Positions 6,559 through 12,500 of a DNA stretch of 64,000 nt are shown here, piece after piece (positions within the stretch are counted from its first letter, which is position 1; each line of letters starts with the position of its first letter). Both the position numbers and the translations under genes were made by a program. Source of the stretch: Artemia franciscana (lineage: Eukaryota; Arthropoda; Branchiopoda; Anostraca; Artemiidae); the NCBI RefSeq assembly GCF_032884065.1, contig NC_088875.1, positions 42,703,291 to 42,767,290 of the forward strand, written 5' to 3'. The notes below the pieces were generated by a model that saw nothing but the letters and a program-made list of their open reading frames with translations, was not told the DNA's origin and searched no databases.

Positions 6559-9500
6559 CTAAAAATAAAATTAAGGCATTAAAACAAATTTGCTTAAATG
6601 AAAGAAAATGACTCTTAAGATATTTTGTTCGTGTAAAACAAGTAGAAAACGGTCTTTCTTCCAAATACTTATTGCTACGAAAACATAAATACATCTTCAA
6701 GAATAAAGAGGGAGGAGGGCGTAAGAGAGAGAACGAGACGGAAAGAGAGAGGAGAGAAAAAAGAAGATAGACATAGACGAAGAAAAAGGGGGAGGGAGAT
6801 AGATTTAAATAAGTGGGTGCTCTTCTAATATTTTAGAGCGCTGCCAAAGCATATATGAACCTTCAAAATGAAAGGTAGGCGCGTGGGGGGGGGGGGTAAG
6901 ACAGAGAACAATAGGGAGAGAAAAAGATGAAGAAAAAGGACAAGAAAAATATTTTTTTCAAGACAAATTTGTGTGTTTAGGTGTATTAAAGAGCAATTAG
7001 TCCTATATATTTCACACAATTCAGTATTTTTTCCTTTTATGCAGACAGTATTTAATATGTCGCTTAAACAAAAAAAAAAAGGCCAGGAGAATGAATAAAA
7101 TAGTACACTTGTAATATACAATTTTATACAAGACAACTGTAGAAATTTTAAGAGTCCAAAAAAGCAAAAAAGGAAAGGACTGCTTCCATTATTGTTAGAA
7201 AACTACCGTTTTCACTATTGATCCATCCATACTTCACCAAAAAAATACCTAACTAAAATAAATTCAGAAGAGAAAAGTCCAGACGATAAAAAATAACTGC
7301 GTCTTAGAACAAATAGGCTACATTAGAATATATAAGAAATAGCTAAAACTTATAGAAAATAGCCTTTTTCACTATTCATACATCAGGCCTCACTAATAAA
7401 TTCCATAGCTAAGAAAATGTCCAGATGATAGGAGACAACTGAGCCTGTTAAAAAAATTAATGTTTTCACTATTTATATATCCAAGCTTTAGTAAGAAGTT
7501 CAGAACAGATAAATAGAGAATATAAAAATAACTAGAACTGTTAGAAGACAACCGTTTCCACTATCGATACATCCAGACCTCACTGAAAAATTTCATAGCT
7601 AAGAAAAAGTCCAGATGATAAGAAATAACTGCACCTGTTAAAAATTAACGTTTTCACTATTTACATATCCATGCTTTACTAAAAAGTTCAGAAGAGATAA
7701 ATAGAGAATATAAAAATAACTAGAACTGTTAGAATATAGCCGTTTTCACTATCGATACATTCAGACCTCACTAAAAAATTCCATAGCTAAGAAAAAAATC
7801 CAGAACAGAAAAAGTCCAGACGATATAACTGATGCTGTTAAAAAGAAAATTACCATTTTCACAATTCGTACAGCACTCATTATTAAAAAGTCCAAAGCTA
7901 CAAAAGAAAACCCAGAAGAGATGTCCCGATGATGAAAAATATATAGAACTGTCAGAGTATTGCTTTTTCACTACTGACTCATCCATGCATCACTAAGAAT
8001 TCCATAGCTAAGAAGCTGGGGCGTAATTTACTATGGGGAAGGGGGAGCGGCTGCCCCCTTCAGAGCCAAGTTTACACCCCCCCCCTCCACAGCTGAAATT
8101 TAGTTTCTGCAAAAAAAAATCGCCAAAATTAAGATAAGCCAGCATAATTCAAGTATCCAGGGAAACAGGTCAGTTTTTCTTAGCATATCTTTGCTTTTAT
8201 GGTAGTACATGACTCATTTTTCAGTTTTCACTGCTATTGATTTGGGAAAATTGGCTCCAACTTTGGCACCCCCCCCCCGCCCAAGAATTTTGACGAGACT
8301 ACTCGACTGCTACGAAGAAGTCCAGAACAGCAAACTCCAAACGATAAGAAACAACTGTAACTGAAAAAAAAAAATTTAACATTTTCACTATCTATTTATC
8401 CACGCCATACTAAAAAGTCCAAACTAAAAACAAAATAAATCCAGAGAAGAAAAAGTCCAGGTGATGACAAATAGCTAGAACCATTAGAAAATTGTCGTTT
8501 TCACTATTGATTCATCCATGCCTTACTGAGAATTTCATAACTAAAAAAAAGCTCAGAACATAAAAAGCCAACGTGATAAGAAATAGCCGTAATTAAAAAA
8601 AAAATCATTCTTTTCACTATTTAAATATCCACGCCTGACGGAAAAGTCTAAACTAAAAAAAAGGTCCATGCCCAATAAAAAGTCGATAATGATAATGATA
8701 CATAGATAGAACTATCAGAAAAAATCTGTTTTGACTATCGATATGTTCACATAAAACACCATAGCTAAGAAAAAGTAGAGAAAAGTCCAAAAAGTCGAAA
8801 TATCTATGCGTCTAAAAATTTCATAACTAGAAAAATTCCAAAACAGAAAATATCCAAATGATAAGAAGTAACTATAACTACTGTAAAATTACTATTTTCA
8901 CTCACGATATATTAATGCATCACTGAAAATTCCATAGCTAATAACTGCAGGAAAACTACCGTTTCCATTACTGACATATTCAAAACTCACTTAAAAACGC
9001 GCAAATAAAAAAAAAGGTCTGGAACAGAAAAATTCCATATGATGACAAATAACTATAACTGTTTACTGTTTCCCACATTGATATATCCAGACCTCATCAA
9101 AAACTCCATAACTAAAAAAATTCCAGATAATAAAAAGTAACTGTAGCCTACCTGTTAAAAAAATACCGTTTTCACTATTTACATATCTATGCCTTACTAA
9201 AAAGTCCAGAACAGATATATAGAGGATATAAAAGTAACTAGAACTGTTAAAAAATTACCGTTTTCACTATTGACATACCCATGCCTCACTAAAAATTCTG
9301 TAATTAAGAAAAAGTCCAGAGGATAAAAAATAACTGTAACTATTAAAAATTTTGCGTTTTCACTATTTACACATCCATGTTTTACTAAAAAGTCCAGAAA
9401 AGCTGAAGTTGAGAACATAAGAAATAACTAGAACTGTTAGGAAACAGCCGTTTTCACTATAGATATATCTAGGCCTCCCTGAAAATTCTATAATTAATAA

Positions 9501-12500
9501 AAAGTTCAGAATAGGAAAAGCCCAGATTACGAGAAGTAACTATAACAGTTACAAAAATACCGTTTTCACTAATATCATATCCATGCCTTGCTAAAAAGTC
9601 CAAAACTAAGAAAAATGCTAAATGATGAGAGATACATATAACGGTTAAAAATTGCTGTTTTCACTTTTGATATATCTATTCCTTACTAAGCGGTCCAGAA
9701 CAGAAAAAAAAACATGATGACGAAAAATAGCTTCAACTATTAAAACTACTGTATTCACACTCGATACTCAACTAAAATGATTTTATTTTTAAACGCCTTA
9801 CACGATCATGCCGATCAATGGCAGTTCTTGTCATAATAAAAGATAAGGCACTAAACATATAAAAATCAAAGCCACAGTCATCGTCATACAAATCTATATG
9901 TTGACTCGAATTAAAAAGTATTAAAAGCCTTATTAAAATCCTAAAAGTAAGAAAAATCCCAGGACAGAAAAGTCAAGATGACAAGAAAGAGCTATAACTA
10001 TTAAAGATTATCTTTTTTAATATTTATATCCAAGCCTTACTACAAAGTCCAAAAAAAAGAAAAAGCCCAGAAAAGAAAAAGTCGAGATAATGAGAATTGA
10101 CTATAATTGTTAAAAATTACCATTTTCACTATTGATATATCCATGCCTCACTAAAAAGTCCAGAACTACAGGACAGCTGGTAGTTTTGAAGTCTGCAGAC
10201 AGAACTTTGGCTAATAGCTCCTAAAATGATTGAGAGATCTCAGCTCAGTTTACAAAAAATAAGGCAAAAGTATTATTTATCAACTTTAAGAACTCGACCC
10301 AGTCATAGCACAGTAGATAGATGGATAAGTGTATTCTAAAGCCAAATATACAGCCATGAACACCGTACAATAACATAAACGAAAGACACAAATAACATAA
10401 ACTTTGATCAGCGATCATCACAAAGCGCTTAAACGAGACACTACATTAACCTAATACTAGTACTTAATACTTGAAAAAAAAGGTCATTGAAAAGAACACC
10501 TAACACTCGGAAAAAGACATAAATAAGACATTATATTTACTTTACACTTTTTTTTTATATTTAACAAAATTTCCAGGTACCTTGCTACTCTACAAATAAA
10601 CTCAGGCCAAGTACTATGTAAGACACCTGGAAGTATAAACTCATTATTTCCAAATATCCCTTCCCTTATCGTAGAGAGCCCCTGGCGCCGGCTTAAGCAG
10701 TGCACTAAATAATCATCTTTAACTCTGCAAAGCGGGCAAGTATATCTGTCTTCATTAGAAAATCTTTCTTTAGAATATTTTATAAATCTTGCACTAAGTA
10801 GATTAATGCTCTTCTTGCCAATACGAGGTACTTAGATCATTCCCCACTGCAGCAAGACTGGAGGACAGGCTTGTTACTTGCCCTTGTGAAAAACAGTCCA
10901 GCGAGTGAAACGCCAATTTGACGCCCAAGCACCGGCAATGGCTCTAGATGATCTTTAATCACCAAGAGCTAGTGATATACTATGCTCAGATTGACACTTC
11001 ATTCTGGTATACATCAAAATTAGTATACGATATGACATATTTATTAACACTAGAAGCCTTTACGTCCCATGGTTAATGAAATAATTGATTTTAATAGAAA
11101 TTTAAAACAGAGACATACCCTTTTTTCTAAACTAAATAAACCAATTGAAAAAAGAAATTCGCTATAAGGCATACCCAGATTAACCAGCCTTCTTTTTCCC
11201 CAAAAATTTTTTCCATTACTTCTATAAAATTCTTTTGTTCTTCCCTGTCAAACAGCCCCAGAAAATTTTTTGACCACAATCCTTTTTAATTCCTCACAAC
11301 CCCCCCCCCCCAAAAAAAAAAAATCATCTTCACCATCTCCACACATTAGGCAAACATAAGGACCCTCTTTCGACCTCAACTTTCCTCAAATATTTTCTTT
11401 TATCTCTAGGCGGTAAAACATTTCTTCTAATCAATATTTCTCACTTCCCCCCTTCTAACCCTTGCCTTGAAATATACTTCCTCTCTCCAAACTTCCTCCC
11501 TGCAGTAGTAAATCTCCCCACCCCCTTTTTACTACCTAGATATAGGCTAATTTTTATCATTATAATTTTGACATTTTTATAGTCTTTTTTTTTACAAAAT
11601 TTTTTTTTTTTTTTTTAGTCACAAGACTAATTTGTCTCAATATTTTATTTGGTTTAACTCTTCTGCAAAATCTACGAGTTTTAATTGTTTTTGACCTTTT
11701 TGACATGTTGACCTCAAGTTCCTTAGAGATAAAAGAAAAAAACTAATAGAAAGGCCAATAAAGGGAATTAGAAGTCGTAGCATCTCAGACAGTGGTTCTT
11801 CAGCAACCCACGTAAGGTTCGGTCTTAACCACATAACGCACACTTTAAGGAATTGTACTCAACACAGTGGGGAGAATATTACGTATAGAACTTTATACAT
11901 ATAGTGTTCTTATTTTTGTTGTGTGAGGCTGAGTCCTCACACAAAAAGCTTTGTGTAATGCAAGCCTTCAGACACTTACCAAAATGAGGCGTTTTGGGTG
12001 TGATACTGAAAGTCTTCTCCATGCCTACATGTGTTATGTTCGCCCGTTGCTCGAGTACGCGTGCCCGGTGTGGGNNNNNNNNNNNNNNNNNNNNNNNNNC
12101 TCTCAAGTCATCCGTAATAGATAACAATCCTAAAACTGTGCATCGTTTATATTTATATTGTAGAGTTTTGTTGTTTATTTTTATGTTGGTTTCGGTAAAT
12201 GGTCGCATGCTCCATACTCTTTCTTTTTTTAATTTGTATTTTAGCACATTCTCGCGAGCTCCGCTTTTGTTGTGCTATTATATACAAATGATTATTTACA
12301 ATGAAATTGTTCTACTAATACTACTACTACGGAAATTGCCAGTTTTTTCGACAGGAAGGGCAAAAAACGATGGAAACGTGAACTTGAGGTAATTTTAAAT
12401 TTACCGGAAAACCTTAGAAAACATCCACTGTTTACCGCTCGGCGATACATTTTGTTCGTTTTGATATGTTTGGAAATATTTGGGGTCATAGAAAATTAAA

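Follow-up and report, generated by a model that had tools for sequence, protein, structure and literature searches.

A 64-kb window on C13 of the Artemia franciscana genome (the whole stretch of DNA analysed, 64,000 nucleotides (nt), to which positions below refer unless stated otherwise) holds an eight-exon DUF4743-Nudix gene that spans 55196 to 6479 on the minus strand, and intron 7 of this gene carries a tandem array that was founded by the adjoining edge of exon 7. The array (7154..10162, minus strand; delimited with nhmmer and Tandem Repeats Finder (TRF)) has the tail of exon 7 (10162-10121) as its first unit, followed by 24 further units, some of them partial. Sequence comparisons support exon 7 as the founder, and we regard it as very probable that the array is the product of ordinary local tandem duplication, retained at places where the outermost splice site, the original one, is still the one in use. 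A function for the array is not supported.

The intron-7 array and its founder

Searching the window with a unit profile, nhmmer returned 25 places at E<0.01, which all lie within 10162-7154 on the minus strand; they start with the exon-7 tail itself, and the next-best place in the window reached only E=0.64. In a typical unit, ~42-48 nt come from the exon tail and ~50 nt from the intron, with the old donor position between them. These results bear out the original prediction, made from the DNA letters, of a ~3-kb array that starts at the real exon and repeats exon tail, donor and intron head. Its figure of ~46 bp of exon per unit was also accurate: a BLAST search of the window with the exon-7 tail found 20 downstream copies at E<1e-8, of which 16 begin to match 45-48 nt ahead of the exon end (the other four at 37, 40, 50 and 58 nt). 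The picture of ~100-bp monomers filling the intron holds in part. Most uninterrupted units are ~92-118 nt long, with a single unit of 67 nt, and two unrelated inserts with approximate edges interrupt the array, one at 8030..8300 and one, which splits a unit, at 9780..9945. Both were recognised by reading the sequence; the unit profile has no match between 8314 and 8004, and none at E<0.01 between 9952 and 9766. The last ~600 nt of the intron (7153-6559) likewise contains no unit at E<0.01 in the unit-profile search.

TRF reported periods of 92-96 and 188-190 within the array. Alternating A/B units form 188-nt dimers with 85% matches at 7330..7804 (minus strand), a second dimer stretch of 190 nt with 78% matches lies at 9083..9510 (minus strand), and over the whole array the identity at lag 2 (0.707) exceeds that at lag 1 (0.648). 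The units also contain related sub-repeats of 16-18 nt. The word CTGGACTTTTT, which had been put forward as a microhomology seed, sits in exon 7 (codons V-L-D-F-L) and, by eye, exactly in the intronic part of four units, with near-matches in the intronic part of others; this 11-mer occurs 1184 times in the genome, compared with 2759 for the same word reversed. Its presence on both sides of the donor stands, and seeding of the array by it is possible. The units differ in how many sub-repeats they hold, however (1 to 3 each), and the intronic copy may be a product of the array rather than its cause.

Several comparisons place the exon at the centre of the array. Of the 42 positions of its tail, 40 agree with the consensus of the 24 further units, and both differences (GTG for GTA, AAT for AAC) are synonymous, so that the same 13-residue peptide is encoded. 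By mean identity to the rest, the exon unit ranks first at 0.735, ahead of 0.723 for the runner-up; the others average 0.663 in pairwise comparison among themselves. In the alignment and tree of the monomers that the original prediction had called for, it shows the smallest mean distance of 23 sequences (0.355; next 0.393); its terminal branch is the second shortest, that of unit 7690 being shorter, and many support values in this tree are low. A unit that spans exon tail, splice site and intron, with the exon copy central, is what an array founded at an exon edge should look like.

The exon tail is also old. Apart from Artemia, 21 arthropod homologues (hand-chosen among 120 listed of 881) share its core, DFL(V/I)RHG, with little or no variation, INSEN being variable, and the stretch aligns with a solved protein of the MutT/Nudix family, 3DUP (2.9e-47), in which the core is recognisable. 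Because the core is conserved in the arthropods and in 3DUP, the exon predates the array. The conserved core, the match to the consensus and the central position together uphold the earlier claim that a protein-coding exon is the founder, and this exon is part of an intact gene.

The array is confined to this intron. A 156-nt consensus query against the 1.27-Gb genome gave 16 matches at E<=1, and all 16 fall inside the intron-7 array; the search omits very common words, its counts are lower bounds, and a first look yielded only four candidates. Within these limits, the rest of the genome yielded no monomers, and we observe a single 3-kb intron rather than the long arrays at many loci of a dispersed satellite. 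The array is therefore a private intronic one, and the label "satellite" given to it previously is not supported. Its units, tens to ~100 nt long, follow one another head to tail at a single intronic locus, which makes it minisatellite-like. An Artemia AluI-type satellite was set aside as a candidate parent, the genome search showing, within the same limits, no dispersed copies.

Duplicated exon edges elsewhere

Satellites founded by a coding exon still in use had been called unusual, a description that is not supported here: a small survey met four more duplications or arrays founded at exon edges. The first is in the same gene, where the exon-1 tail (22 nt), its donor and ~110 nt of intron 1 occur as two tandem copies (54678..54959, minus strand; 119/137 identical), with the donor GT changed to GC in the copy. 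The other three come from protein kinase loci. A PF00069 search gave 135 matches, and 40 loci were scanned, namely 10 out of ~50 hand-picked exon-like loci and 30 from the search, with the ends of the profile matches standing in for true exon edges. No edge duplication was seen at 26 of the 40 (whole-domain or long-frame loci scanned with only 1.5 kb of flank), and the 14 exon-like loci yielded three, one with a tail copied downstream and two with heads copied upstream.

At L046 (C17:9123698-9124042), which by eye is a polo-like kinase exon, exon tail, donor and intron are followed by two further downstream units, the second partial, and the first downstream copy retains GT. At L058 (C1:11088675-11088899) the acceptor and exon head are copied once, 161 nt upstream. 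L066 (C7:9741943-9750146) is the mirror image of the exon-7 case, with nine upstream copies of the acceptor and kinase exon head (ILVAL...) at a spacing of 33-45 nt, compared with none in 200 shuffles. The splice sites of all three were read by eye. When exons 1 and 7 are counted in, all the tail cases (3/3) have their copies downstream and both head cases (2/2) have them upstream, which puts the copies on the intron side in 5/5.

Duplicates adjoin 2 of the 14 spliced edges of the Nudix gene (16 edge queries) and 3 of the 28 edges in the 14 kinase loci, or 5/42 together. As controls, a local same-strand duplicate crossed 1028 of 4000 random positions in the Nudix window and 72 of 544 in ten of the exon-like kinase loci; the two controls differ in query lengths and limits, and that of the window contains the arrays themselves, which raises its rate. 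Within these limits exon edges are not duplication hot spots. The simplest view is that this repeat-rich genome often undergoes local tandem duplication, which catches exon edges at about the background rate. A bolder proposal, to which we give only a minority chance, is that exon-edge arrays form a general directional class here, with tail and donor units downstream and acceptor and head units upstream as set by the outermost splice site, their decoys slowly purged by selection and an occasional frame-keeping unit becoming an exon.

Origin of the array and competing explanations

For the origin of the array we propose that a local tandem duplication captured the end of exon 7 (~46 nt, perhaps as much as ~52), the donor and ~50 nt of intron 7. 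Because transcripts would keep entering at the sole acceptor and using the first donor, the extra copies would have landed inside the intron and been harmless. Unequal exchange or slippage would then have multiplied the units, in part as dimers, until there were ~24 further copies, after which the copies would have decayed and acquired inserts while the exon was held fixed by protein selection. The cases that survive such a process would be tail copies downstream and head copies upstream.

Decay is evident in the coding part of the units. Substitutions relative to the consensus are spread evenly over the three codon positions (52/303, 53/297 and 60/303), and 5 of the 23 unit peptides read in the exon frame contain stop codons. 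The donor has fared similarly: among the 23 further units having donor columns, GT is kept in 10 and lost in 13 (units 7894 and 8421 read by eye), so the earlier statement that each unit carries a decoy donor applies to fewer than half of them. Six of the 10 units that keep GT have a predicted U1 pairing of -4.4 to -5.3 kcal/mol, compared with -5.1 for the exon's own weak donor.

Several points weigh against the duplication origin and should be set beside it. The unit profile was built from 18 hand-picked units that included the exon unit, and diverged copies elsewhere in the genome could be missed, given the word skipping of the search. The survey of exon edges is small and hand-picked, with profile-match ends replacing true edges, and placement on the intron side is partly built in, since copies inside an exon would alter the protein. 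The use of the first donor is deduced from phase and from conservation of exon 8. The array has been read in one assembly of one species, so that neither its age nor its founding event is directly visible. Finally, divergence from the consensus is lower in the exon part of the units (165/903) than in their intronic part (300/1297). Strict neutrality would not predict this difference, although it could come from a less tight alignment of the intronic part or from some constraint at the DNA level.

Among the alternatives, the one that fares best, which we still consider unlikely, is that the array acts on splicing or expression through decoy donors or intron definition and is shaped by selection that purges the decoys. 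Mean column conservation predicts that ~14 units should retain GT, more than the 10 that do (one-sided binomial test, 0.059; 0.016 if the rate of the exon part is used), and the exon-1 copy has GC in place of GT. However, the test overstates the deficit, as the units share ancestry. A CpG adjoins the donor (ACG/GT); among the 93 columns the donor G is ranked 25 and the donor T 21, which is not extreme, and the first downstream copy at L046 keeps its GT. Purging of decoy donors is therefore suggestive at best.

Less probable again is that the units are, or were, alternative cassette exons adding 11-residue repeats to the protein. From an acceptor-like AACAG to the old donor, the consensus has an 81-nt stretch that is open and frame-keeping, and the same is true of 11 of the 73 acceptor-donor pairs listed for intron 7 (e.g. 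9402-9259); the slightly smaller divergence of the exon part also fits. In contrast, the other 62 pairs shift the frame or meet a stop, the public protein contains no unit, and the lack of codon-position bias, the stop codons in 5 of the unit peptides and the loss of GT in 13 units all speak against coding use. The array units thus do not show the coding constraint combined with working splice sites that cassette or mutually exclusive exons would have, and because they lack codon-position bias, the 81-nt open stretch is at most raw material for exonisation.

We give very little credence to the idea that an intronic satellite was there first and that the exon tail was taken from it or homogenised by it. 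In its favour are the likeness of exon and units and the fact that conversion could in principle occur between them, but arthropods and 3DUP conserve the core of the tail as protein sequence, and the genome search, within its limits, found no copies elsewhere; as far as tested, exon 7 does not derive from an older satellite. An assembly artefact is just as improbable: tandem arrays are often mis-assembled, but false expansion would yield near-identical copies, and here the units differ pairwise by about one-third and unique inserts are present.

The host gene and wider significance

The host gene encodes PF15916 (DUF4743; 1.5e-32) followed by PF00293 (NUDIX; 3e-10), the domain order of a DUF4743-Nudix gene, and homologues of the spliced protein carry the names YJR142W or Nudix hydrolase 24. 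Its exons are all on the minus strand, and the gene model agrees with the original assignment of the gene to the Nudix family and of the array to its seventh exon. The closest homologue is A. franciscana QYM36_003157 (P0001), identical (100%) across 91% of the query. Exon 1 (54938..55196; MATLQAAQ...FYLTG) equals the start of P0001, and the 21 residues of exon 3 (49390..49453) are contained in it; exons 2 (52771..53006), 4 (46514..46644), 5 (34410..34528) and 6 (14742..14871) follow the gene model. Exon 7 (10121..10220), the founder, is an open frame of 33 residues plus the first base of the following codon, with an acceptor ...CATTTTAG, a donor AATG/GTAATT and in-phase joins to exons 6 and 8; its peptide is contained in P0001 and aligns in the 21 other arthropod homologues. 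Exon 8 (6479..6558; 25 residues and the stop) joins in phase and has a counterpart in Lynceus and Lepidurus, whose homologues have EPNLPELVELLH where it falls. The public protein QYM36_003157 stops at ...GYINSEN, the last full codon of exon 7, and so lacks exon 8, a warning for annotation, as this protein of the DUF4743-Nudix gene ends at the exon-7 donor. A predicted protein of Tigriopus californicus, TCAL_11207 (P0010), has an internal repeat with a break just past INSENE. This hints at an intron in about the same position, and also at another partial duplication or an annotation error.

Further local tandem arrays lie in or near the gene, at 12900-13732, 27684-28809, 51070-52687 and 59328-60569 (periods 96, 292, 167 and 267). 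The exon-7 unit profile gives no match below E=1 in these four, and kinship with the nearby 96-nt array at 12900-13732 was rejected, since the profile matches nothing there. By eye, the long open frames at 16743-20502 (minus strand) and 29183-33257 (plus strand) resemble proteins of non-LTR (long terminal repeat) retrotransposons. An Rfam scan of the window gave no match at the gathering threshold, and the window is complete apart from 25 N at 12075-12099.

Intronic minisatellites and variable number tandem repeats (VNTRs) are similar to the array in scale, period and location, and differ from it in that the intron-7 unit includes coding sequence of the adjoining exon. Cases of intron gain through tandem duplication have reportedly been found in Drosophila (PMC2891723). 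Plastid trnF pseudogene arrays in Brassicaceae and Solanaceae, with two to four copies in the Solanum cases (PMC3786074), are also tandem partial copies, variable in number and structure, that adjoin a gene still in use; they differ in involving a plastome tRNA gene with copies in a spacer, and neither a protein-coding exon nor a splice site. In the potato RdRp gene an intron was gained by tandem duplication across an intron-exon boundary (PMC4974935). Such intron-gain duplications, like the exon-7 case, straddle an exon edge and copy splice signals, but there one duplication created a new intron, whereas the Artemia copies sit within an intron and multiply. A review of satellites (PMC5615363) states that, in theory, one could arise from any sequence, and it lists ribosomal DNA (rDNA) spacers and transposons as seeds. 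The intron-7 array shares with satellites its tandem monomers, higher-order dimers and growth from shorter repeats, and is unlike those of that account in being private, 3 kb in size and founded by a protein-coding exon edge still in place. No report of an intronic array founded at an exon edge appeared among the titles and abstract openings listed, which is weak evidence of absence, as most subscription journals lie outside that search.

With the founder fixed by protein selection beside its decayed copies, the array has a natural root, so that the ancestor of an intronic array can be named. The mirror pair, with tail arrays downstream and head arrays upstream, is the part most worth keeping. 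If directional exon-edge arrays do form a general class, they would be a steady source of intron growth and new coding repeats. Should the small survey generalise, local tandem duplication would repeatedly place copies of splice sites into Artemia introns, and decoy splice sites and intron growth would become testable genome-wide in this organism.

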